The position numbers and the translations under genes are program-made. The notes beneath the pieces are model-generated. The model did no database searches. It was not told the DNA's origin and saw only the letters and a list, made by a program, of their open reading frames with translations. 54,404 nt of DNA from Teichococcus aerophilus (lineage in GTDB: Bacteria; Pseudomonadota; Alphaproteobacteria; Acetobacterales; Acetobacteraceae): NCBI RefSeq assembly GCF_014490485.1, contig NZ_JACTVA010000039.1, positions 1 through 54,404 on the forward strand, given 5' to 3'. Positions 7,227 to 19,003 of the stretch are shown one piece after another (within the stretch, counting starts at the first letter, position 1; each line of letters opens with the position of its first letter).

Positions 7227-7318
7227 GAGCGTGACGGTTTGCGGTCGAAGCTCGAAAAGCCCGTATCACGCGATCTGACAAAGCCGTAGAGCACGGCGCG
7301 CGAACGGAGCACGCTCTA
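7227..7318 (-). repeat. family 2 palindromic repeat (TAGAGC element), copy 1
   Basis: A ~92-bp element read from 7318 on the minus strand. It begins TAGAGCGTG, contains CCGTTCGCGCGCCGTGCTC and then GCGTGATACGGGCTT, and ends with a GCTC-type inverted terminus. It matches the copies at 19862, 20357 and 47821. Its first three bases are the TAG stop codon of otnC. Internal inverted segments (GCGTGA / TCACGC) predict a long stem-loop. Confidence 0.65.
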
Positions 7319-7948
7319 GCCGAAGGTGGAGAGAAGGTCGTCCACCTGCGCCGGCGTCAGTTCCCGCGCCGGCTGGCCGCGTAGCATCAGCGCCAATTTC
7401 GCGGATTCCTCAAGTTCCTCCGCGGCATAGACCGCGTCGGTCAGCGTCTTGCCGGAGACGACGGGGCCGTGATTGGCCAGCAGCATGGCGCGGGAATTCT
7501 GCGCCGCGGCGAAGACCGCCGGTTCCATCGACGCATCGCCCGGGCGGTAATACGGCACCACCGGCAGGCGCCGGCCAACGCGCATGACGAAATAGGGCGT
7601 CAGCGGCGGGATCGGCGCATCCTCCCCCGGCTCGGCCAGGCAGCCGATGGCGGTGGCATAGGTGGAATGCAGGTGCACCACCGCGCCGGCTTCCGGCCGC
7701 GCCGTCAGCACCGCGCGGTGCAGGAAGACTTCCTTGGACGGCTTGTCCCCGCCCACATGCCGCCACTCCGTGTCCAGCTTGCTGATGCGCGCCGGGTCCA
7801 GCTTGCCGAGCGACGAATTGGTCGGCGTCATCAGGTAGCCATCCGGCAGGCGCACGCTGATGTTGCCGGCGCTGCCGACCGAGTAGCCACGCTGGAACAG
7901 GCTGGCACCGAAGGCGGCCAGCTGCTCGCGCAGGTCCTGCTCGGTCAT
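7316..7948 (-). CDS. otnC: class II aldolase/adducin family, 3-oxo-tetronate 4-phosphate decarboxylase
   Basis: In the D-erythronate/threonate pathway OtnC decarboxylates the 4-phosphorylated 3-oxo-tetronate to DHAP. The 210-residue protein has the class II aldolase metal site His92-x-His94 (HLHST) and His160 (NHG), plus Glu73 (SKEVFLH), the same pattern as fuculose-1-phosphate aldolase. Its ATG overlaps the otnK stop by 4 bases (ATGA), and that pairing with a DUF1537 kinase is what identifies it as OtnC rather than a sugar aldolase. The stop codon is part of a dispersed repeat. Confidence 0.87.
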   Translation of the reverse strand: MTEQDLREQLAAFGASLFQRGYSVGSAGNISVRLPDGYLMTPTNSSLGKLDPARISKLDTEWRHVGGDKPSKEVFLHRAVLTARPEAGAVVHLHSTYATAIGCLAEPGEDAPIPPLTPYFVMRVGRRLPVVPYYRPGDASMEPAVFAAAQNSRAMLLANHGPVVSGKTLTDAVYAAEELEESAKLALMLRGQPARELTPAQVDDLLSTFG

Positions 7949-9198
7949 GGCTGGAACGCCTTGAGGAAGAAGTCGCGCGCACCGAAATTGCCGGATTTCA
8001 GCGCCAGGTGCAGCCCGGCCGGCTCCGCATAGGTCCAGGGCACGCCAGGGTCGATCTGCGGGCCGATGCGCAGGCTGGTGATGCCCAGCGCCTGCACCAC
8101 GGCGCCGGAGGTCTCGCCACCCGCCACGACCAGGCGGCCGACGCCGCGCGCCACCAGCTCGGCCGCCACGGCGGCCAGGGTGTGCTCCACCAGCATGCCG
8201 GCGGCATCGCGTCCCAGCTTCTGCTGCAACGCCGCCACCTTGTCCGGCGCCGCGCTGCCGACGATGACGACGGGGCGTTCCTCGTTCAGCTTGCCGTCCA
8301 TCCACGCGCGCGCCTGCTGCGCCAGTGCCTTGGCATCCGGCGTGGCCAGCGCATCGAGTTCCAGCACCGGCACATGGTCCCGCGCCAGCCCGATCTGCCC
8401 CAGCGTGGCGCGGGAGCAGGAACCGACGACCACCGCCATGGCACCCTTGGCTTCCGGCAGGCTGTCCGCGTCACCCCGGTCCGGCAGCAGGCCCTGGTTG
8501 CGGAAGTTCTGCGGCAGGCCCATGGCGATGCCGGAACCGCCGGTGATCAGCGCATGGTCGGCGCAGGCGGCGCCGATGGCGTGCAGGTGCTCGTCCGTCA
8601 CCGCATCGGTGATGGCGTAGCGGCGCCCGCCATCCCGCAACTGGTTGAAGGCGCGGCGGATGGCGGATTCCCCCTGGTCCACAACGGAGAACGGGACGAG
8701 CCCGACGCCTGCTTCCGTCTGGCGGGACAGCACGCGCACCAGATTGGCGTCGCGCATCGGGGTCAGCGGGTGGTTCTCCATCCCGCTCTCGTTCAGCAGC
8801 GCGGTGCCGACGAACAGGTGGCCCTGGTAGATGCTGCGCGCATTGGCGGGGAAGGCCGGGCAGGCGATGGCGAAGCCGGCCTGCAGCCGCTTCATCAACG
8901 CATCCGCCACCGGGCCGATATTGCCTTCATCCGTGCTGTCGAAGGTGGAGCAGTACTTGAAGAAGATCTGCTTCGCGCCACCCGCCAGCAGCGCATCGCA
9001 GGCCGCCAGGCTCTCGGCCACCGCGTGGGTGACGGGCGCGGTGCGGGACTTCAGCGCCACCACCACCGCATCGGCGTCCGGCAGCGGGCCTTGCGGAACG
9101 CCGATGACCTGCACGGTCCTCATGCCGTGGGCGACGAGCATGGCCGCCAGGTCGGTGGCGCCGGTGAAGTCGTCGGCGATGCAGCCGAGGATGGGCAT
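7945..9198 (-). CDS. otnK: four-carbon acid sugar kinase (DUF1537), 3-oxo-tetronate kinase
   Basis: ATP-dependent kinase that phosphorylates 3-oxo-tetronate, feeding OtnC and yielding DHAP. The 417-residue protein starts MPILGCIADDFTGATD, the N-terminal signature of the DUF1537 family. It carries a C-terminal nucleotide-binding segment (VAGGETSGAVV). ATG 9198 is preceded by a GGGGGAAA site; the frame is open further upstream but without family sequence. It is followed by otnC with an ATGA overlap. The dehydrogenase (ltnD) and isomerase (otnI) of the full pathway are not in the window, so the precise starting sugar acid is unknown. Confidence 0.9.
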   Translation of the reverse strand: MPILGCIADDFTGATDLAAMLVAHGMRTVQVIGVPQGPLPDADAVVVALKSRTAPVTHAVAESLAACDALLAGGAKQIFFKYCSTFDSTDEGNIGPVADALMKRLQAGFAIACPAFPANARSIYQGHLFVGTALLNESGMENHPLTPMRDANLVRVLSRQTEAGVGLVPFSVVDQGESAIRRAFNQLRDGGRRYAITDAVTDEHLHAIGAACADHALITGGSGIAMGLPQNFRNQGLLPDRGDADSLPEAKGAMAVVVGSCSRATLGQIGLARDHVPVLELDALATPDAKALAQQARAWMDGKLNEERPVVIVGSAAPDKVAALQQKLGRDAAGMLVEHTLAAVAAELVARGVGRLVVAGGETSGAVVQALGITSLRIGPQIDPGVPWTYAEPAGLHLALKSGNFGARDFFLKAFQP

Positions 9199-9533
9199 GG
9201 TGGTATTTCCCCCGAATCTTCCTGGGCGCGCTTGGCACACAGGGCGCGAAGCACGCAGTCCGTTAGAAGCTAGAACCTGTTCGCCACGGCGGCTAGAGCG
9301 CGCCCACCGAACCGGTGCGGCCGGCCTCACCTTCAGCGCGCGTTTCAGGTCCCGACTTGCAAAGATCGCGCACCGGTGGCCGGACACCGGATTGCTGTCA
9401 GGCCGCGCGCGTCACATCCAGCCTATCGCCATCAGAGAGTGTCCGCCCGCCGCAGACGGATGCGGCGGCCAGGCTCTGTCCACACCTCAACCTGCGTAAA
9501 GCCTAAGGGAAATACGCTGGCTGCCGTGGCGGG
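9199..9533. other. 335-bp gap upstream of otnK
   Basis: No gene supported. It must hold the otnKC promoter on the minus strand. A CTAGAGCGCG stretch at about 9291-9300 resembles the end of the family 2 repeats, but the rest does not align. No clear operator or terminator is visible for the methyltransferase gene that ends at 9534. Confidence 0.35.
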
Positions 9534-10427
9534 TCAGTTGATGGTCAGCGCGGTCTTGGCCACCGATGGCGGCAGCGCCAGCAGATCGGCATGGCCGACC
9601 CGGGCCACCAATGCGCCACGCGCCGCCTGCAACTGGCGTGCGCGCCGCCAGGCCTCGATCCGCGCCCGCAGCACGGGCGGCAGGCTCTTGCCGGCGGCAT
9701 CGGCATGGCCGTCGGCCAGGGCCTCCGCCATGTTCGGCGTCGCGGCCGGGATGTGCCACGGGCTGGGCGCGGTGACGACGCGGAAGCCTTCGGCCCGGAA
9801 GGCACGCGCCATCTCGCGCGGGGCGTCCGGGCCCAGGGCGCGGCCGCCGAAGCCCTTGTCCCGCCGCTGGTCCTGCCGGAAGCCGCGGGCAATCAGCCGG
9901 TCATCCGCATGCGGCGGGTAGAAGCCCTCATGCCCGTTCACGTTCAGCGCGGCATAGAACGGCACGCGCAGCGTGGCCGCCATGCGGGAGACCCAGGGGC
10001 GGGAGACCAGGTCGCACAGCGCCGTGCTGACCACCGCATCCGCCTGATCCAGCTTCAGGTTGCCAGGCGCTTCCGCTAGGTCGGCCAACTGCGCCTCGAC
10101 CCGCCAGACGCCGACGGGGGTATGGATCAACATCACCTGCCGCTTGGGCAGCGTGACGATCCAGCCGACCTGCTCGGCGGCTTCGCCGATGTCGTTAAAG
10201 GCGCGCTCCAGCAGCCGGGCGTCGGCATCCACCAGAGTCCAGATCTGCGTGCGGCCGATATAAGGCGCCAGCCAGCGGAACAGCGCGCCGGTGCCGGCGC
10301 CGAGGTCGAGGATGCGCGGCCGCACCGGCAGCGCTTCCGCCAGCAGCAGCGCCAGGGGGACGGAGCGGGCGCGGGAATCGAACTGCTCGCGCAGCTGCAG
10401 CCAGTCGCCGTCGAAATCGTCGCTCAT
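9534..10427 (-). CDS. class I SAM-dependent methyltransferase
   Basis: A 297-residue methyltransferase with a clear SAM motif I, DLGAGTG (41-47), and an acidic motif II (VDADAR, from about residue 66). It is the last gene of a minus-strand run. Its ATG overlaps the glycosyltransferase stop by 4 bases (ATGA). The substrate is unknown; since the preceding genes are a glycosyltransferase, a PTPS homolog, a dehydrogenase and a RibD_C reductase, it probably methylates the product of that pathway. The C-terminal third has a basic, Arg-rich stretch (RARIEAWRRARQLQAARG). Confidence 0.85.
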   Translation of the reverse strand: MSDDFDGDWLQLREQFDSRARSVPLALLLAEALPVRPRILDLGAGTGALFRWLAPYIGRTQIWTLVDADARLLERAFNDIGEAAEQVGWIVTLPKRQVMLIHTPVGVWRVEAQLADLAEAPGNLKLDQADAVVSTALCDLVSRPWVSRMAATLRVPFYAALNVNGHEGFYPPHADDRLIARGFRQDQRRDKGFGGRALGPDAPREMARAFRAEGFRVVTAPSPWHIPAATPNMAEALADGHADAAGKSLPPVLRARIEAWRRARQLQAARGALVARVGHADLLALPPSVAKTALTIN

Positions 10428-11464
10428 GACGTGGTGTCCATCTCGGCCAGGAAGGCGTCCGCGCGGTCCGGCCAGCGGGGCAAGGCCTGCCCGGCCTTCC
10501 ACGCGGCCTCCGCCATCTCCGCCCGCAGCGCCGTGTCGAAGATCGGCCGCCGCATGGCGCGGGAGAGGGAGGTGACGTCGCCGGGCGGCGCGATCACCCC
10601 CGCCTGGCGCGGCACCACGTCGGCGATGGCGCCGCCGGCGGTGATGGCCACCGGCAGGCCGCGCGCCAGCGCTTCCGCCGCCGCCATGCCGTAGCCTTCC
10701 CAATGCGTCGCCAGCGCGAACAGGTCGGCGCCGGCATAAAGCTGTTCCAGCTCCGCCTGCTGCACCTCGCCCGCGAAGGTGACGCGGTTGGCGATGCTCA
10801 GCTCCTCCGCCAGGGCTTGCAGGCTCTGCGCGTGCACCGGGTCCCGCGGCCCGCCGGCGATGGTCAGCGTCCAGTCCAGGTCGGTCAGCTTCGCCAATGC
10901 GCGCAGCAGCACGTCATGCCCCTTGCGCGGCACCAGCACGCCGACGGCGAGGATGGCGCAGCCCGGCCCGCCGGAACCCTTGCTGCGCGGGGCCGGGTCG
11001 GTCCCCGGCTCCACCACGCCGATCTTCGCCGCGTCCACCGGGAATTCCTGCGGCAGCCGGTCGGCGGTGAGGCGGGATGTCGCGACCAGCCGGGCCATGC
11101 GCGGGAACAGCAGGCTTTCCAGTTCCTTGAGCCGGGCGCGGTCGGCTTCCAGCACGCCGGGCTCGATGGCGGTGGGGTGGTGGATCAAACCGACGGCGCG
11201 GCGCTGTACCAGCTCATCCGCCAGTGGCGCGAAGGCGGGCAGGCCGAGACCGTCGATGATGATGCGCGTGTCCGCACCGATCCCCGCCAGCGCCGCTTGG
11301 GCGGAGGCCTCGGCGGCGTCATCCGGCAATGGGTGACGGCCTGCCAGCTCCACCACCTCCACCGCGTGCCCGGCGGCGCGGAAGCCTTCCACCAGCCGCC
11401 GGTCGTAGCCATAGCCGCCGGAAATAGTGCCGAACGGCCCCGGCACCAGCAAGGCGAGCTTCAT
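10424..11464 (-). CDS. glycosyltransferase family 4 (GT-B fold)
   Basis: A 346-residue retaining GT-B glycosyltransferase. It shows the N-terminal glycine-rich loop (FGTISGGYGYDRR, 11-23), VPRKGHD (178-184) at the start of the donor domain and the E-x7-E donor motif (Glu256, Glu264 in HWEGYGMAAAEA). The start ATG overlaps the PTPS-like stop (TAATG) and its end overlaps the methyltransferase start (ATGA), so all three are translated together. Most GT4 enzymes act on lipids or exopolysaccharide; the neighbours here suggest a small-molecule acceptor instead. That is inference. Confidence 0.88.
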   Translation of the reverse strand: MKLALLVPGPFGTISGGYGYDRRLVEGFRAAGHAVEVVELAGRHPLPDDAAEASAQAALAGIGADTRIIIDGLGLPAFAPLADELVQRRAVGLIHHPTAIEPGVLEADRARLKELESLLFPRMARLVATSRLTADRLPQEFPVDAAKIGVVEPGTDPAPRSKGSGGPGCAILAVGVLVPRKGHDVLLRALAKLTDLDWTLTIAGGPRDPVHAQSLQALAEELSIANRVTFAGEVQQAELEQLYAGADLFALATHWEGYGMAAAEALARGLPVAITAGGAIADVVPRQAGVIAPPGDVTSLSRAMRRPIFDTALRAEMAEAAWKAGQALPRWPDRADAFLAEMDTTS

Positions 11465-11862
11465 TAAAGCGCGGCCTCGTAAGCCGCCCAGGCCAACGGG
11501 CTTTCACGCAGCAGCACCTTGATGGACTGCACCGCCTTCGCGGCCTCGCCCAGCCGCCCGGCCTGGATGACCTCGACCAGCTTGCCGTGGATGTAGGAAC
11601 ACAGGAACTCGGTGCTGGTGTTCTGCCCGGCGAATTCGCCCATGTCGTCCAGGTTGTTGTAGTCGAACCCATCGAGGATGCGGCGCAACTCGACACGCGC
11701 GGCGGCGATGTCGATCAGCAGGTTCAGACGGTCGAGCTTCTCGGCGCGGAACTCCGCCTCCACCACGAAGGTGGCGCCGTGCACGCGCTGGGCCGGGCCG
11801 AATTCCTCGCCCTTGAAGCTGTGGGCGACCATGACGTGGTCGGCGACGGTCAGGCTGTACAT
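11464..11862 (-). CDS. 6-pyruvoyl-tetrahydropterin synthase/QueD-like protein lacking the catalytic Cys
   Basis: A 132-residue member of the T-fold PTPS/QueD family. His14 (VAHSF) and His28 (VHGAT) match two of the three zinc ligands. The canonical C-x3-HGH is replaced by GPAQRVHGAT: the catalytic cysteine and the third zinc histidine (Ala30 here) are missing. The TSTEFLC and RESP-x-A-x-A-x-YEA segments keep the C-terminal family pattern. It is therefore not a standard QueD even though a queuosine cluster lies upstream. It is 34 bases after the dehydrogenase and overlaps the glycosyltransferase start by one base (TAATG). Activity, if any, is probably altered. Confidence 0.85.
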   Translation of the reverse strand: MYSLTVADHVMVAHSFKGEEFGPAQRVHGATFVVEAEFRAEKLDRLNLLIDIAAARVELRRILDGFDYNNLDDMGEFAGQNTSTEFLCSYIHGKLVEVIQAGRLGEAAKAVQSIKVLLRESPLAWAAYEAAL

Positions 11863-11896
11863 GCGGCGTGTTCTCTCGGGAAAAACGGATGATGGC

Positions 11897-12856
11897 TCAA
11901 TAGGTGACGACGGGGCAGAGCGGCGCAACCTCTCCCGGCGCTGCCGGGCCAAGGAGTTTTGCCATGCGGGCCGGCAATTCGTCGAAGCGCAGCACCGGGC
12001 CGCACAACGCATCCAGCACCGGATCCTTCAGCAGGGAGAGCGCCAGCGCCATCCGCTCCGCATAGCTGCGCCGTCCGCACATCGCCGGCGCGACGCTGCC
12101 GACCTGGGTGGAAAGCAGTTGCAGCCGTTTCACATGGAAAGCCTCGCCCAGCGGCAGCGCCACCTGCCGGTCGCCGTGCCAGGAGGCTTCCAGGATGCGC
12201 CCCTCGAAGGCAGCGCAGTGCAGCGCCTGGCGCAACCCGGCCTCGGTGGCGGAGGTATGCACGATCAGCTCCTGCTCCAACGGCGCCTCGTCCGGCGTGG
12301 CGAAGTTCAGGCCCAGCAGGTCCACCACGGCGCGGCGGGACAGGTCGGTATCCACCACCGTCACCACCGTGCCGGGGATCCGCCCCAGCAGCCAGGCGGC
12401 CAGCAGGCCGACGACGCCGGCGCCCAGCACCAGCACCCGCTCCCCCGGCAGCGGCCGCGCATCCCACAGGATGTTCACCGCCGTCTCCATGTTGGCGGCC
12501 AGCACGGCGCGCTGCGTCGGCACGCCTTCCGGCACGGGGATGCACATCTCGCGCGGCGCCAGGAACAGGTCCTGATGCGGATGCAGCACGAAAACCCGGT
12601 GGCTGTCCGCCAGCGTGCCGACCGCCGCGTAGCCGTATTTCACCGGGTAGGAGAACTCGCCGGCCTGCAGCGGCGCCCGCATGGTGCCCCACTGGCTGGG
12701 CGGCACATGACCGTTGAAGACCAGCCGCTCGGTGCCGCGCGAGATGCCGCTGGCCAGGCAGCGCACCAACACCTGGTGCGGACCGGGGGTGGGCAGCGTT
12801 TCCTCGCGGATCTCGCCCTGGCCGGGGGCGGTGGCCCAGAAGGCGCGCGCCCTCAC
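11897..12856 (-). CDS. MDR-family dehydrogenase, BchC-like, in the pterin-like operon
   Basis: A 319-residue medium-chain dehydrogenase/reductase. The nucleotide-binding motif is GAGVVG (145-150). The classical zinc site is not present: the usual GICGTD is GISRGTE (37-43), followed by a YPVKYGYAAVG segment. This pattern is characteristic of the BchC-like subgroup (bacteriochlorophyllide dehydrogenases and relatives), but no bch genes are near. The start is a GTG at 12856 that overlaps the RibD_C stop by 4 bases (GTGA); an alternative GTG at 12871 would add five residues. The substrate is unknown; oxidation of a hydroxyethyl-like side chain is possible by analogy only. Confidence 0.85.
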   Translation of the reverse strand: MRARAFWATAPGQGEIREETLPTPGPHQVLVRCLASGISRGTERLVFNGHVPPSQWGTMRAPLQAGEFSYPVKYGYAAVGTLADSHRVFVLHPHQDLFLAPREMCIPVPEGVPTQRAVLAANMETAVNILWDARPLPGERVLVLGAGVVGLLAAWLLGRIPGTVVTVVDTDLSRRAVVDLLGLNFATPDEAPLEQELIVHTSATEAGLRQALHCAAFEGRILEASWHGDRQVALPLGEAFHVKRLQLLSTQVGSVAPAMCGRRSYAERMALALSLLKDPVLDALCGPVLRFDELPARMAKLLGPAAPGEVAPLCPVVTY

Positions 12857-13728
12857 GCACGGCCCTCGCACACGGCGGGGCGGGCACGGTGCAGCGCGAT
12901 GTCGAACAACACGTCATCCCCCAGATTGTGCACGCCCCATTCGAAGCGCAGCCCATCGGCGATGCGCGCCGCTTCCGGCAAGGTGAAGGCCGGGATGCCG
13001 GAGCCCAGCAGCACCGGCGCGACGGTCACATGCAGCCTGTCCAGGCACCCTGCCGCCAGGAAGCGGGAGACGGTGAGGCCGCCGCCCTCGACGAAGATGC
13101 GCGTCAGCCCACGCGCCGCCAGCAGCGGCAGCAGGGCCTGGATGTCCAGCCCACCGATGGCGGCACGGGGCACGCGCAGCACATCCGCCGCGCCATGCGT
13201 CTCGCCACCGCCCGAATCGTCGGCGCAGACCAGCAGGGTGGGCGGGCCGCCCGCGGCGAAGATGCCGTAGTCGGGCCCGAGGCGCCGGTCGGTATCCAGC
13301 ACCACCCGCACTGGGCTGGGGCCGCAGCATTCGCGCGTGGTCAGGCGCGGGTTGTCGTGCTTCACGGTGCCGGCGCCGACCACGACGGCATGGCACAGAG
13401 CGCGCAGCCGGTGGGTGTGCAGGATATCCCCCCGCCCGCCGATCCACTGGCTGGAGCCGGAGGTGGTGGCGATGCGCCCATCCAGCGTCTGCGCCAGCCG
13501 GCCCAGCACCATGCAGCCATCCGCTGCGCCGGGGGGCGCCAGCACCGGCGCGAACAGCCGCGCCAGCGCGCAGCCCGCTACCACCGGGGGCGTGGCCGCG
13601 ATCGCATCGGGCAAGGGCGTCCGGCCCGGCGCATCGCGCAGCGCCAGCAGGCTGGTCCAGGCCAGGTCGTCGGGCGTGTCCCCGGATGTATCCAGGGGGG
13701 GCGTGTCCAGCGGGGGCGCATCCATCAT
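12853..13728 (-). CDS. stand-alone RibD C-terminal (pyrimidine reductase) family protein
   Basis: A 291-residue protein whose residues from about 72 onward match the RibD_C/dihydrofolate-reductase-like reductase. It has AQTLDGRIAT (79-88), GAGTVKHDNPRLT (118-130) and FVEGGG (212-217). The N-terminal 70 residues lack the HAE and PCxxC deaminase motifs of full RibD, so it is a reductase only. The start has two adjacent ATGs (13728, 13725) and a weak ribosome-binding site. An N-terminal PPLDT-PPLDT duplication is encoded by a short DNA repeat. It begins the five-gene overlapping block. Riboflavin synthesis itself is unlikely without ribA/B/E/H neighbours. Confidence 0.85.
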   Translation of the reverse strand: MMDAPPLDTPPLDTSGDTPDDLAWTSLLALRDAPGRTPLPDAIAATPPVVAGCALARLFAPVLAPPGAADGCMVLGRLAQTLDGRIATTSGSSQWIGGRGDILHTHRLRALCHAVVVGAGTVKHDNPRLTTRECCGPSPVRVVLDTDRRLGPDYGIFAAGGPPTLLVCADDSGGGETHGAADVLRVPRAAIGGLDIQALLPLLAARGLTRIFVEGGGLTVSRFLAAGCLDRLHVTVAPVLLGSGIPAFTLPEAARIADGLRFEWGVHNLGDDVLFDIALHRARPAVCEGRA

Positions 13729-13757: not shown

Positions 13758-13806
13758 GATATCAAGCCGGATATCAAGCCGGAGCGCAGGCGCGGATATC
13801 AGGCGG
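13758..13806. repeat. 12-bp direct repeats between VUT and RibD_C genes
   Basis: GATATCAAGCCG occurs twice in tandem (13758-13769, 13770-13781) and a third, imperfect copy (GATATCAGGCGG, 13795-13806) overlaps the VUT stop codon. Each begins with the palindrome GATATC. They lie in the 70-bp gap just upstream of the RibD_C start and may be a regulator site, or simply slippage. Confidence 0.55.
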
Positions 13807-14356
13807 GAAGGATGCCCCGCCGCTCATCCGCACGGCGCACCCAGGCCACCAGCGGCAGGGACAGCAGCACCATCCACAGCTTGCCCAGCACCTGCCCGGG
13901 CAGGAAGGACAGGTCGCCGAACGCGATCCACAGGAAGGCTAGGCTATCGACCACCAGCCCGACGACACCGGAGGCCAGCACCGCCAGTACCAGGTTGCGC
14001 CGCTGCAGCGGGGTATAGACGGCGAGGTCCGCCGTCTCGCTGATCAGGAAGGCGGCGGCGGAGGCCAGCACCAGCGCGGAGGGCGCCAGGGTGGCGGAGA
14101 TGACGGTGCCGGCCAGGATGGCCATCCAGGCATAGCCCAGGCCCAGGCGGCGCTGCACCATGTCCCGCAACACCAGGGCCAGGCCGATCATCAGCACGCC
14201 GGAGGGCGCCATGACGCCAGGGGCGACCGGGATGAGGCAGGGGCCCTGCGGCACGCACACGGTGCCGGCATGGCCGATCAGCCAGTTGGCGGCGGGGATG
14301 GTCAGCCCGAAGGCAACGAGGGCGACGAAGCCCTCCAAACGGCGGGTATCGGTCAT
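13799..14356 (-). CDS. VUT family (YhhQ-like) transporter, probable queuosine precursor importer
   Basis: A 185-residue membrane protein with about six hydrophobic segments and the VUT/COG1738 pattern (SETADLAVYTPLQRR, VVDSLAFLWIAFG). YhhQ members import queuosine precursors such as preQ0/preQ1. It lies 61 bp downstream of queC on the same strand, which supports a link to queuosine. The ATG at 14356 was chosen because the family sequence starts there; the frame upstream runs into the queC tail. Together with the de novo genes it would let the cell salvage precursors. Confidence 0.83.
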   Translation of the reverse strand: MTDTRRLEGFVALVAFGLTIPAANWLIGHAGTVCVPQGPCLIPVAPGVMAPSGVLMIGLALVLRDMVQRRLGLGYAWMAILAGTVISATLAPSALVLASAAAFLISETADLAVYTPLQRRNLVLAVLASGVVGLVVDSLAFLWIAFGDLSFLPGQVLGKLWMVLLSLPLVAWVRRADERRGILPA

Positions 14357-14417
14357 CTGCGAGTTTTCCCAGGAGGGGCGGGTGCATCCGCGTTCCGGGG
14401 CGCAGCGGATCCGCGCC

Positions 14418-15119
14418 TCAGGTGGGCGCTTCGTAGTCCATCCATCCCTTCTCGCGCAATGCGCAAGCCGGGCAGGTGCCGCAGCCATAGCCCCAGGCGT
14501 AGCGGCGGGAACGGTCCCCCAGGTAGCAGGTGTGGGTGTCCTCGACGACATCCTCCACCAGCGTCCGGCCGCCGAGCTGCTCCGCCAGCGCCCAGGTTGC
14601 GGCCTTGTCGATCCACATCAGCGGCGTGTGGAGCACGAAGCGCTTCTCCATGCCCAGGTTCAGCGCCACCTGCAGTGCCTTGATGGTGTCGTCCCGGCAA
14701 TCCGGGTAGCCGGAGAAATCCGTCTCGCACACGCCGGTGACGATGTGGCGCAGGCCGCGGCGGTAGGCGAGGGCGGCGGCGAAGGTCAGGAAGATCAGGT
14801 TGCGGCCGGGGACGAAGGTGTTGGGCAGCCCGTCCTCCCGCATCGCGATCTCCACCTCGCTGGTCAGCGCGGTGTCGGACATGGCGCCGAGCGCGTCCAG
14901 CGCCAGGGTGTGGTCCGGGCCGAGCCTGCCGGCCCAGCGGGGGAAGTGGCGCGTGATGTCATCCCGGAAGGCCTCGCGGCATTCCAGCTCCACCTTGTGG
15001 CGCTGGCCGTAGTCGAAGCCGATGGTCTCCACCCGGCCGAAGCGCTCCAGCGCCCAGGCCAGGCAGGTGGCGGAATCCTGTCCGCCGCTGAACAGCACCA
15101 GGGCGCCTTCGTTCGTCAT
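14418..15119 (-). CDS. queC: 7-cyano-7-deazaguanine synthase
   Basis: ATP-dependent conversion of 7-carboxy-7-deazaguanine to preQ0. The 233-residue protein has the PP-loop SGGQDS (11-16) and the C-terminal zinc cluster Cys198, Cys213, Cys216, Cys219 (CGTCPAC). ATG 15119 overlaps the queG stop by 4 bases (ATGA). queE, which makes its substrate, is not in the window. Confidence 0.96.
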
Positions 15120-16156
15120 CTCGTCTCCAATCGTGAAACGGCCCAGCGGGCCGCGTCGGCCACCACGTCGGCCGGGTCGTCGCAGAGTGAAACGGCCACC
15201 TCCCGCAACGCCGGCAGGCCGGAATTGCCGATGGCGACCAGCACGTTCCGCACGAAGCGGTCCCGCCCGATGCGCTTGACCGGGGAGCCGCTGAACAGGG
15301 CGCGGAAGGTCGCATCGTCCAACCTGGCCAGCTCCGCCAGCCGGGGCGCGTTCAGGTCCTCCCGCGCCACCAGCCCCGGCTCCTTGCCGTGGCTGGCAAA
15401 TTTGTTCCAGGGGCAGACGGAGAGGCAGTCGTCGCAACCATAGATGCGGTTGCCCATCGCCGCGCGGAATTCCTCCGGGATGGGGCCTTTATGCTCGATG
15501 GTCAGGTAGCTGATGCAGCGGCGGGCATCCAGCTTGTAGGGGCCGATGAAGGCGTCGGTCGGGCAGGCGGTCAGGCAGCGCGTGCACTTGCCGCAATGGT
15601 CGGTGTCCGCCGCATCGGGCGCGAGGTCGAGCGTCGTGTAGATCTCGCCCAGGAACAGCCAGGAGCCGAATTCGCGGGAGACGATGTTGGTGTGCTTGCC
15701 CTGCCAGCCGAGCCCCGCCTGCTGCGCCAGCGGCTTCTCGGCCACCGGGGCGGTATCGACGAACACCTTGAGCGCGCTGCCGCGCCATTCCTCGACCATC
15801 CAGCGCGCCAGCATCTTCAGGCGCTTCTTGACGATGTCGTGGTAGTCCTTGTGGCGGGCATAGACGCTGATGCCGCCCCGGTCCGGCTGGCCGAGGATCG
15901 AGAGCGGATCGCTCTCCGGCCCATAATTCATGCCGAGGGCGATGACGGAGACCGCTTCCGGCCACAGCCCCTGCGGGTGGGCGCGCTGTTCCACCCGGTC
16001 GGCCATCCAGCCCATCTCGCCGTGCATGCCGGAGGCCAGGAAGGCGTCCAGCCGGGCCCGCACCTCCGGCCCCAGATGCGCCGGCGCGAAGCCGACCGCA
16101 TCGAAGCCGATCTCCAGCGCTTTCGCGCGGATGAGGGCGGCGTTACCCGCGGCCAC
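15116..16156 (-). CDS. queG: epoxyqueuosine reductase (4Fe-4S)
   Basis: Cobalamin-dependent reductase that turns epoxyqueuosine into queuosine in tRNA. The catalytic Asp134 is in [13 protein letters not shown]. The ferredoxin-type motifs are Cys188/191/194/198 ([11 protein letters not shown]) and Cys241/244/248 (CDDCLSVC). At 346 residues it has full length for the short form. The start is GTG at 16156, overlapping the queF end by 14 bases; no ATG lies near the family start. Order in the operon is queA-tgt-queF-queG-queC. Confidence 0.94.
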
Positions 16157-16607
16157 GGTAGTTGGGCACGTCCTGCGCCGGAATCCACACGCCGTCCGGC
16201 GCCGTGCCGGTCTGCCAGAACACGTCGATCGGGATGCCGCCGCGCGGATACCAGTAGCCGCCGATGCGCAGCCAGACCGGGGAGAGCGTCTCCACCAGCC
16301 GCTGGCCGATGCCCACCGTGCAGGCCTCGTGGAAGGCGCCGTGGTTGCGGAAGGAGGTGAGGAACAGCTTCAGGCTCTTGCTCTCGACGATCCACTGGTC
16401 CGGCACGTAGTCGATGACCAGGTGGGCGAAGTCCGGCTGGCCGGTCATCGGGCAGAGCGAGGTGAACTCGGGCGCGGTGAAGCGGACGCAGTAGCGCAGC
16501 CCGGCATGCGGGGTGGGCACGCGCTCCAGCACCGCTTCCTCCGGGCTGGCGGGCTGCTGCGTGTTCTGGCCCAACATGGTCAGGCCGGAGACATCATGGC
16601 TGCTCAT
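16143..16607 (-). CDS. queF: NADPH-dependent 7-cyano-7-deazaguanine reductase, type I
   Basis: Reduces preQ0 to preQ1. The 154-residue protein is the unimodular (YkvM-type) form, with catalytic Cys52 and Asp59 in [11 protein letters not shown] and the NADPH motif ESKSLK. The ATG at 16607 overlaps the tgt stop by 4 bases (ATGA). Confidence 0.95.
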
Positions 16608-17728
16608 GCGGCGATCTCCTGTTTGACGGCCCATTTCGCCTGGATGGATTCGGCCTCCTGGTCGAACCGGCCGGCGAGGATGGCGGCGCGCAGGCGCGCC
16701 ATCAGGGTCTGGTAGTAACGGATGTTGTGCCAGGTCAGCAGCATCGGCCCCAGCATCTCGCCCGCCTTGAACAGGTGCAGCAGGTAGCCGCGCGAGTGGC
16801 GGGTGCAGGCCGGGCAATCGCATTCCGGGTCCAGCGGGCCGGTATCCTCGGCGTGCCTGGCGTTGCGGATGTTCAGGATGCCCTGGCTGGTATAGGCGCG
16901 GCCGGTGCGGCCGGAGCGGGTGGGGATGACGCAGTCGAACATATCCACGCCGCGCCGCACGGCGCCGATCAGGTCGCTCGGCGTGCCGACGCCCATCAGG
17001 TAGCGGGGGTGGCTTTCCGGCAGCATGTCCACGCAGAAATCCAGCGTGCGGAACATCTCCTCCTGGCCCTCGCCGACGGCCAGGCCGCCGATGGCGTAGC
17101 CCTCGAAGCCGATCTCCGTGAGCGACTTCGCGCTCTCCGCCCGCAGATCCTCGAAGGTGCTGCCCTGCTGGATGCCGAACAGCCCGTAGCCCTCCCGCGG
17201 CACGAACGCGTCGCGGGAGCGCCTGGCCCACGCCATGGAAAGCCGCATGGCGCGGGTGGCTTCCTCATGGCTCGCCGGGTACTCGATGCATTCGTCGAAG
17301 CACATGGTGATATCGGCATCCAGCAGGTGCTGGATCTCGATGCTGCGCTCCGGCGTCAGGCGGAACTTCTCGCCGTTGATGTGGCTCTGGAAGGTGACGC
17401 CGTCGCTGTCCATCTTCCGCAGCTTGGACAGCGACATCACCTGGAACCCGCCGGAATCGGTCAGGATCGGGCCGTGCCAGTCCATCATCTTGTGCAGGCC
17501 CCCGAGGCGGCCGACGCGCTCGGCCCCCGGGCGCAGCATCAGGTGGTAGGTGTTGCCCAGCACGATATTGGCGCCTGTGGCGCGTACCGCATCCGCCGTC
17601 ATGGCCTTCACCGTGCCGGCGGTGCCGACCGGCATGAACACCGGCGTCTGCACCGCGCCATGCGCGGTGTGCAGCGTGCCGGCACGCGCCTTGCCGTCAT
17701 GGCACTGGCAGCTCCAGGACAAGGTCAC
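16604..17728 (-). CDS. tgt: tRNA-guanine transglycosylase
   Basis: Exchanges G34 of GUN-anticodon tRNAs for preQ1. The 374-residue protein has [21 protein letters not shown], the nucleophile region [10 protein letters not shown] and the zinc ligands in CDCPACTRH plus a His about 25 residues later (TWHN). The start is GTG at 17728 in a GTGA overlap with the queA stop, so translation is coupled. Confidence 0.96.
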
Positions 17729-18849
17729 TTCGCGTTCTCCCGGAACAGCAGGCTGGCATCGCCATAGGAATAGAACCGATAACCGGCATCGACGGCATGG
17801 GCATAAGCCTGCCGCATCCGCTCCATGCCGGCGAAGGCGGAGACGAGCATGAACAGGCTGGACTTCGGCAGGTGGAAATTGGTCAGCAGCACATCGGCCG
17901 AATGGAAGCGGTGGCCCGGCAGCAGGAAAATGTCCGTCAGCCCCTGGAAAGGATGGACAATGCCGTTGTCATCGACCGCGCTTTCCAGCAGGCGCAATGC
18001 CGTGGTGCCGATGGCGACGATGCGGCCGCCCTTCACACGCGTGGCATTGATGGCCGCCGCCGCCTGCGGCGTGATCTCGCCCCACTCGGCATGCAGCTTG
18101 TGCGCGCGTGGGTTGTCGGTGCGGATCGGCAGGAAGGTGCCGGCGCCGACATGCAGCGTGACCTCGACCTGCGAGACGCCGCGCGCCGCCAGGGCTTCCA
18201 CCAGCGCGGGCGTGAAATGCAGGCTCGCAGTGGGGGCGGCGACCGCGCCGGGCTGGCGGGCGAACAGGTGGGTGTAGTCCTCCCGGTCCTGCTCCGTCGG
18301 GCCGTCCGGGCGGGCGATGTAGGGCGGTAGGGGCACTTCGCCCGCCTTTTCCAGCGCCGCCGCCAGCAGTGCCTGGTCCGGGCCGAAATCCAGCAGCACG
18401 GCGCCGCTATCCTGGCGCTCCACCACGCGCGGGGCGAGCTCGGGCGCGCCCTCAATCGCCAGCACGTCGCCAGCGCGCAGCTTCTTGGCGCCACGCACCA
18501 GCGCGTGCCACTGGCCGCCGGCATCGGCGCGGTTCAGCATGATCTCGACCCGCGCCTCGCCCCGGCGCGCATGCAGTCGGGCGGGGATGACGCGGGTGTC
18601 GTTCACCACCATCAGGTCGCCGGGCTGCAGCAGGCCTGGCAGGTCCGCCACGCCCATATCCCGCGTGCCGTCCGCGCCCACCACCAGCAGCCGCGCGGAA
18701 TCCCGCGGCCGGGCCGGCGCCTGGGCGATCAGCGCCTCGGGCAGCGCGAAGTCGAAATCCTCGGCCCGCAGCTCGGGCAGGCCGGTCCCGGTGGGGCCTG
18801 GCTCGGTGAGGCCGGGCTCGGAGGGGGCTTGGGTGTCTGACTGGGTCAT
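17725..18849 (-). CDS. queA: S-adenosylmethionine:tRNA ribosyltransferase-isomerase
   Basis: Transfers and isomerises the ribosyl group of SAM onto preQ1 in tRNA, giving epoxyqueuosine. The 374-residue protein has [30 protein letters not shown] and [10 protein letters not shown], all QueA signatures. It is the first gene of the run. An N-terminal [12 protein letters not shown] stretch is an unusual proline/glycine insertion encoded by GC-rich direct repeats, before the normal domain start. The promoter should lie in the 154 bp shared with the divergent SDR gene. Confidence 0.95.
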
Positions 18850-18944
18850 GGGAATCCGCGGGCGGTAGCGGAGGGGGGCGCGGAAGGCAAGCAGAGCCTT
18901 GTCGGGCCAGCGTTGCGCACGGTCTTGCCCGGCCGCCGGGGCCA

Positions 18945-18989
18945 GCGCAGGCTGGAGCAAAACCACCGGCGCAGGCTGGAGCAAAACCA
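18945..18989. repeat. 24-bp-period direct repeat upstream of the SDR gene
   Basis: GCGCAGGCTGGAGCAAAACC occurs at 18945 and again at 18969. It lies 15 bases before the SDR start, in the divergent promoter region shared with queA. It may be a tandem duplication of a leader or operator. Confidence 0.6.
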
Positions 18990-19003
18990 AGGGGGGAAGC
19001 TCA

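Follow-up and report, generated by a model that had tools for sequence, protein, structure and literature searches.

A probable Acetobacteraceae form of a widespread PTPS-IV-centred biosynthetic gene cluster in Teichococcus aerophilus

What does a bacterium make with a chain of five genes built around a PTPS homolog that lacks its catalytic cysteine? The question is raised by contig NZ_JACTVA010000039.1 of the alphaproteobacterium Teichococcus aerophilus (Acetobacteraceae), analysed here from position 1 to 54,404 (the window, meaning this whole stretch of 54,404 nucleotides). The five genes encode, in order, a RibD_C-type reductase, a zinc-less MDR dehydrogenase, the PTPS homolog, a GT4 glycosyltransferase and an S-adenosylmethionine-dependent methyltransferase (MT). 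The initial annotation saw in them a pathway that it could not match to any known one. This did not hold, as the cluster is a copy of the one around PTPS-IV, a subfamily that has already been named. We consider it rather probable that the five genes represent, for the Acetobacteraceae, a biosynthetic cluster that is widespread but patchy in its distribution and centred on PTPS-IV; it would be fed by GTP and yield a pterin-type product.

The PTPS homolog and its active site

The PTPS homolog (window positions 11464-11862, minus strand, ATG start, 132 aa) matches the Pfam PTPS family (E 2.9e-20) and contains the sequence FGPAQRVHGA. According to an excerpt of PMC5445326, FGPAQ is the signature of PTPS-IV, a network cluster of 561 sequences whose reported neighbours are RibD_C and PF00925 proteins. 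The window protein carries the signature and a RibD_C protein is encoded by the adjoining gene (12853-13728). PF00925, a frequent neighbour and no requirement, was not found near the window gene; the two PF00925 genes of the genome lie on contigs C123 and C64. The protein shares 52% identity and the fold with PDB 3d7j, which would itself be a PTPS-IV member, as read from its FGPAQ motif in the alignment. In signature, RibD_C neighbour and fold the window protein is like the PTPS-IV of COG0720 (SCO6650, PDB 3d7j), and nothing was found that separates the two. Our locus comparison covered 98 loci, namely the window, 17 loci from genomes of the class and 80 of 589 stretches encoding a relative, and FGPAQ is present in 96 of them (the exceptions are L060 and L170).

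We aligned 17 PTPS-IV proteins and numbered the residues after E. coli QueD. His16, His31, Glu86 and Glu110 are kept in all 17 proteins. Three residues are replaced in all 17, Cys27 by Ala, His33 by Ala and His71 by Tyr or Phe, and the Asp70 position is variable (Asn in 10, Asp in 4, Ala in 2 and Gly in 1). The window protein has Ala at the Cys27 and His33 positions and Tyr at His71. We take Cys27 and His71 to be catalytic, His33 to bind zinc and Glu110 to anchor the substrate. On these assumptions, the earlier observation that the homolog lacks the catalytic Cys and one zinc His is borne out, and the catalytic His is lost too. By itself the missing Cys would not set PTPS-IV apart: three other PTPS homologs in the alignment have Tyr or Ser at this position, yet keep HGH and His71. 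PTPS-IV is like QueD (PTPS-I) in the T-fold, His16, His31 and Glu110 and unlike it in the three replaced residues and in its score against the QueD model (TIGR03367), where the window protein reaches 40 bits and the cut-off is 89.25 bits. The CxxxHGH motif was found in none of the 98 loci. As aligned, the PTPS-IV active site is distinct from that of QueD and uniformly conserved, and the uniformity of the replacements suggests a changed reaction rather than decay.

We also noticed two QueD-like alphaproteobacterial proteins (L066 and L067, from genomes G063 and G066) that have HGH, carry Tyr or Ser in place of Cys27 and are without Glu110 in the alignment.

Co-occurrence and conserved neighbourhood

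In a sample of 172 genomes of the class, the window genome included, PTPS-IV gave strong matches in 18 (E <=5e-30). Two further matches, L066 and L067, are weak (6e-4 and 7e-4) and were excluded from the locus comparison. Strong matches of the MDR dehydrogenase (E <=1.6e-50) were found in all 18 genomes with PTPS-IV and in none of the 154 without it; weaker ones start at E 3.7e-9, and some MDR match is present in 73 of the 172 genomes. The chance that two sets of 18 genomes out of 172 coincide has a log10 P of -24 if relatedness is ignored. MT was recovered in 17 of the 18 genomes, and in the last one (G053) 153 bases separate PTPS from the end of its contig; a single class genome without PTPS-IV gave a weak MT match (5.3e-4). 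Scattering of the homologs, which the initial annotation had named as a refuting result, is not observed. In a broader sample of the phylum, strong PTPS-IV matches occur in 27 of 398 genomes (E <=1.2e-27, the next match being at 1.6e-11), and none of five other genomes of the window's family in this sample had a PTPS-IV match, so the distribution is patchy.

The neighbourhoods are similar over large distances. Within 9 kb of PTPS-IV we found MDR in 93, GT4 in 91, MT in 82 and RibD_C in 65 of the 98 loci, several of which are cut by contig ends, and the order MDR-PTPS-GT4-MT was found in three phyla. The cluster genes form one conserved unit. The closest loci among the matches listed are from Roseomonas-type Acetobacteraceae, with the best four PTPS matches 76-78% identical.

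The idea of a five-gene pathway stands as far as the conserved unit is concerned, but the full set is larger. It also includes GTP cyclohydrolase II (GCHII), a creatininase-family hydrolase and a CDP-alcohol transferase, named by Pfam scans of representatives, and a multi-spanning membrane protein, which we take to be YbhN-like. We counted them by taxon at a threshold of 100 bits, with profile models that derive from these very loci, which means that the counts are no independent test. The 30 actinobacterial loci contain the transferase in 28 cases, the YbhN-like protein in 27, GCHII and creatininase in the same 24, and RibD_C in 4. Both Gemmatimonadota loci have the transferase, the YbhN-like protein, creatininase and RibD_C. 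Of the other 66 loci, which we counted as proteobacterial on the basis of record titles and the scope of the search, RibD_C is present in 59, the transferase in 7, GCHII in 6, creatininase in 2 and the YbhN-like protein in none.

Further loci, unused in model building, came from 20 of the 27 phylum genomes with strong matches (of the other seven genomes, three were already covered and four were left out). Counted at 60 bits anywhere within a locus of 11-18 kb, these Pseudomonadota loci contain MDR and GT4 in all 20 cases, RibD_C in 17, MT in 14, the transferase in 10, the YbhN-like protein in 9, GCHII in 8 and creatininase in 4. L242, L244 and L248 each combine the transferase, MDR, PTPS, GT4, the YbhN-like protein, RibD_C, GCHII and creatininase, and L248 has MT as well. 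The transferase subfamily of the cluster is strongly matched (E <=5.4e-25) in 8 of the 18 alphaproteobacterial PTPS-IV genomes and in none of 7 without PTPS-IV (weak matches, 2 of 18 and 1 of 7), and it had no match in the window genome.

The cluster is also found on plasmids. We opened five of the 20 plasmid records found; four contain the cluster, among them one of Methylosinus trichosporium OB3b and that of Rhodobacteraceae SC52, which is without GT4, and the fifth (L240) has PTPS-IV alone. Neither GT4 nor MT is universal, as SC52 shows for the former and the 82 of 98 loci, some of them cut by contig ends, for the latter. The glycosylation and methylation that had been proposed may therefore be optional and come late in the pathway.

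Two observations on individual records may be added. In all five opened plasmid records (L236-L240) PTPS-IV is annotated as '6-carboxytetrahydropterin synthase', and four add a queuosine GO term, even though the QueD motif is missing. Amycolatopsis eburnea has a second copy of the cluster GT4 a few genes downstream (L173:17133-18191).

GCHII and creatininase in the presumed first step

As the fuller clusters contain GCHII and creatininase, the input is most likely GTP. Together with the conserved cluster, these two genes lend good support to the view of the initial annotation that a single pathway is encoded, making a small molecule from pyrimidines or pterins derived from GTP. Spoonamore and colleagues (2006) are said to have found that SCO6655 of S. 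coelicolor has Met at a switch position and makes the formylated pyrimidine FAPy. We assume that the switch position corresponds to Tyr105 of E. coli GCHII and that enzymes with another residue there form FAPy. All 24 GCHII proteins of actinobacterial clusters are of the non-Tyr type (17 Met, 6 His and 1 Gln). For nine of these genomes we compared the cluster copy, which has Met, His or Gln in each, with 19 other GCHII matches; 18 of the latter have Tyr and the 19th is divergent. GCHII from clusters of Pseudomonadota has Tyr in 6 of 6 loci and in 8 of 8 of the further loci. With non-Tyr enzymes in Actinomycetota and Tyr enzymes in Pseudomonadota, the pathway seems to begin in two different ways.

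The presence of creatininase in the same 24 actinobacterial loci as GCHII fits deformylation of FAPy, and one actinobacterial creatininase weakly matches the model of ArfB, the FAPy deformylase (1.4e-09). In the window genome, the full GCHII (L082/L209, contig C123) has Tyr and is not of the presumed FAPy-forming type, a second match (L212) is to a divergent domain whose switch position does not align, and two creatininase-family genes lie on other contigs.

The archaeal route runs from GCH III through ArfB, a creatininase-family enzyme, to ArfC, a RibD_C reductase. The actinobacterial clusters resemble it in pairing a non-Tyr GCHII with a creatininase-family enzyme, with RibD_C in 4 of 30 loci, and differ from it in that GCHII replaces GCH III and the cluster creatininase scores far below the ArfB cut-off. 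We know of no counterpart of MDR, PTPS-IV, GT4 or MT in the archaeal route.

The MDR dehydrogenase

The MDR protein (11897-12856, minus strand, GTG start, 319 aa) is matched in Pfam by two nucleotide-binding models only, both below their cut-offs. It had been described as BchC-like, and TIGR01202 is indeed its best NCBIfam match, but with 47.4 bits against a cut-off of 291 we rejected the assignment to BchC itself and regard the likeness as distant. The AlphaFold2 model (pLDDT 92.7) has 4ejm, 2d8a and 4ilk as its best Foldseek matches; profile matches include RspB, L-iditol 2-dehydrogenase and L-idonate 5-dehydrogenase, and many of the closest solved relatives are polyol or alcohol dehydrogenases. 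S39, G41, T42 and E43, together with KYGY, are invariant in 22 sequences, and the former four align with the GIC-GSD segment of RspB (4ilk). The reported absence of the normal zinc motif is confirmed, and GHE is present in 2 of 93 sequences.

Locus architecture and adjacent genes

The five minus-strand genes are all open and run head to tail with the overlaps first noted: RibD_C and MDR share GTGA, MDR and PTPS are separated by a 34-base gap, PTPS and GT4 share TAATG, and GT4 and MT share ATGA. The RibD_C protein (12853-13728, ATG start, 291 aa) is predicted to be a pyrimidine or pteridine reductase. It was thought to lack the deaminase half of RibD, and we agree, as Pfam gives RibD_C only (PF01872, E 1.1e-36, residues 77-249) and the deaminase model is unmatched, so it is not a bifunctional RibD. 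Its closest solved relative by sequence is 6p8c, a 2,5-diamino-6-ribosylamino-pyrimidinone phosphate reductase (E 2.9e-24). The glycosyltransferase (10424-11464, ATG start, 346 aa) matches PF00534 (Glycos_transf_1, E 8.8e-31). The MT (9534-10427, ATG start, 297 aa) is a class I enzyme whose Pfam match to Methyltransf_25 (E 8.2e-06, 26.9 bits) is just below the 27-bit cut-off; it matched no NCBIfam family.

Directly upstream on the same strand (13799-18990) are queA, tgt, queF, queG, queC and a Vut_1 transporter-like gene. The first four are presumed identities, assigned from the translations, and the last two were named from family matches. This que neighbourhood is shared with loci of Pseudoroseomonas oryzae and P. 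cervicalis (L131 and L137). The QueE model TIGR04508, the only QueE model tried, had no match in the window genome, which is 99.9% complete, and it matches 8 of 14 control genomes. Downstream on the same strand (7316-9387) we found genes for a 3-oxo-tetronate kinase and a 3-oxo-tetronate-4-phosphate decarboxylase, present in 41 and 32 of the 98 loci, respectively, and in no actinobacterial or gemmatimonad locus. These two genes may accompany the cluster in certain lineages only, or they may add a step to the pathway.

A possible route and its weak points

From gene association, family membership and residue conservation we infer a possible order of reactions, most tentatively for the MDR redox step and the ring closure. 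GTP would be opened by GCHII, either directly or, in Actinomycetota, via formylated FAPy and a deformylase, and RibD_C would then reduce 2,5-diamino-6-ribosylamino-4-pyrimidinone phosphate at C1'; for both steps the support is good. With no deaminase, the 2-amino group would stay and could be held by the conserved PTPS Glu. The zinc-less, polyol-dehydrogenase-like MDR might oxidise the neighbouring C2' hydroxyl, and reduction at C1' together with oxidation at C2' might lead to the ketone that GTP cyclohydrolase I (GCH I) produces in its Amadori step. PTPS-IV might assist closure to a dihydropterin-type ring. GT4 and MT would then decorate the ring product, which the CDP-alcohol phosphatidyltransferase and the YbhN-like protein, where present, may link to the membrane or move within it. 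As a complete scheme, a pterin route independent of GCH I, with GCHII, an Amadori shift by RibD_C and MDR, closure by the T-fold protein, decoration, and placement on a membrane lipid by a dedicated CDP-alcohol transferase in Actinomycetota, Gemmatimonadota and some Pseudomonadota, is unlikely to be right in all its parts.

Several findings weigh against the reading of the cluster as a coherent, GTP-fed unit. PTPS-IV occurs without partner genes nearby at three Streptomyces loci, two on contigs and one on a linear plasmid (L188, L192 and L240). In genome G035 the MDR gene is on a different contig, with an unassigned 209-aa open reading frame adjoining PTPS. RibD_C is absent from 26 of the 30 actinobacterial loci, a count that includes loci truncated by contig ends. 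Homologs were found elsewhere in all eight tested genomes without RibD_C in cis, but four of the eight (Streptomyces, L230-L233) pair it with a separate Tyr-type GCHII, so it may serve riboflavin synthesis there. Cluster GCHII is scarce (6 of 66 proteobacterial loci within 9 kb, 8 of 20 further Pseudomonadota loci) and Tyr-type in Pseudomonadota, where it may be just the housekeeping enzyme. Creatininase scores far better against the MftE and creatininase models than against ArfB, it also accompanies Tyr-type GCHII (L242, L244 and L248), and no creatininase-family match was found in 2 of the 18 alphaproteobacterial PTPS-IV genomes. Some zinc-less MDR proteins are C=C reductases, not alcohol oxidases, and such reductases are also among the Foldseek matches.

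Alternative explanations

The product might never become a pterin. The cluster could make a reduced, modified diaminopyrimidine that is glycosylated, methylated and often linked to lipid through a phosphodiester, with PTPS-IV as a binding or isomerase protein. The loss of the catalytic Cys and His and of the zinc His would be in line with such a role, and the lipid link would agree with the frequency of the transferase and the YbhN-like protein in Actinomycetota (28 and 27 of 30 loci) and in the further Pseudomonadota loci (10 and 9 of 20), as well as with the motif DG.DG..AR, present in 26 of 37 CDP-alcohol transferases. However, the 66 proteobacterial loci have only seven transferases and no YbhN-like protein, the transferase was not found in the window genome, and the anchoring Glu of the T-fold, which is kept, is compatible with pterins as well. 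We regard this explanation as possible but doubtful. A flavin or lumazine analogue, in which the RibD_C product proceeds to an isoalloxazine-type molecule, would agree with GCHII and RibD_C being riboflavin-pathway families, but the cluster has no deaminase domain, and none of the scanned neighbours was named as a lumazine or riboflavin synthase, although no systematic search for these was made; we find it very unlikely.

Two known cofactor pathways can also be considered. An excerpt of PMC5041015 places PTPS-IV in archaeal F420 synthesis, citing unpublished work, and CofH was found in both actinobacterial genomes tested. As CofH is above its cut-off in only 3 of the 18 alphaproteobacterial cluster genomes and has no match in the window genome, a role of the cluster in the biosynthesis of F420 seems highly unlikely. 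The other candidate is queuosine, with the PTPS protein as QueD of the adjacent que operon and the remaining genes as independent neighbours. The que genes directly upstream on the same strand speak for it, and no canonical QueD was found in the genome, where the only other PTPS homolog found (contig C56, L068) keeps HGH and has Tyr at the Cys position. However, this homolog scores higher against the QueD model (70 bits) than the window protein, which fails the cut-off and, like all the 98 loci, lacks the QueD motif. Among the loci compared, the que genes recur only in the near relatives L131 and L137 and in G035, while MDR and GT4 accompany PTPS-IV across phyla. The case of an active QueD supplying queuosine, named at the outset as the one that would overturn the pathway, thus did not occur, and we consider it extremely unlikely. 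For a pigment or a modified (tRNA) base, which had also been suggested as products, we found no support.

Relation to known systems and significance

The favoured reading thus remains that of a PTPS-IV-centred cluster with a pterin-type product, and it appears to be a real, coherent and widely shared pathway, the product of which appears to be a vitamin-like molecule. A glycosylated pterin is one possible product, similar by description to the cyanobacterial pterin glycosides (cyanopterin) in an excerpt of PMC13259868. The MDR, GT4, MT, CDP-alcohol transferase, YbhN-like and creatininase neighbours go beyond the account in the excerpt of PMC5445326. The subfamily itself has already been named, and the initial annotation was correct in its main lines. 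To it we add a more complete set of partners, the finding that MDR and PTPS-IV co-occur exactly in the class sample, and the contrast in the GCHII residue.

For PTPS-IV, a subfamily that has a name but no established function, the partner set defined here yields specific enzymes together with a likely first substrate (GTP) and likely first intermediates (FAPy or diaminopyrimidinone), so the product can be searched for directly. To our knowledge, no pterin lipid of such a kind has been described. If the proposed reading is true, a lipid-linked pterin, or one made independently of FolE, would be new biochemistry.

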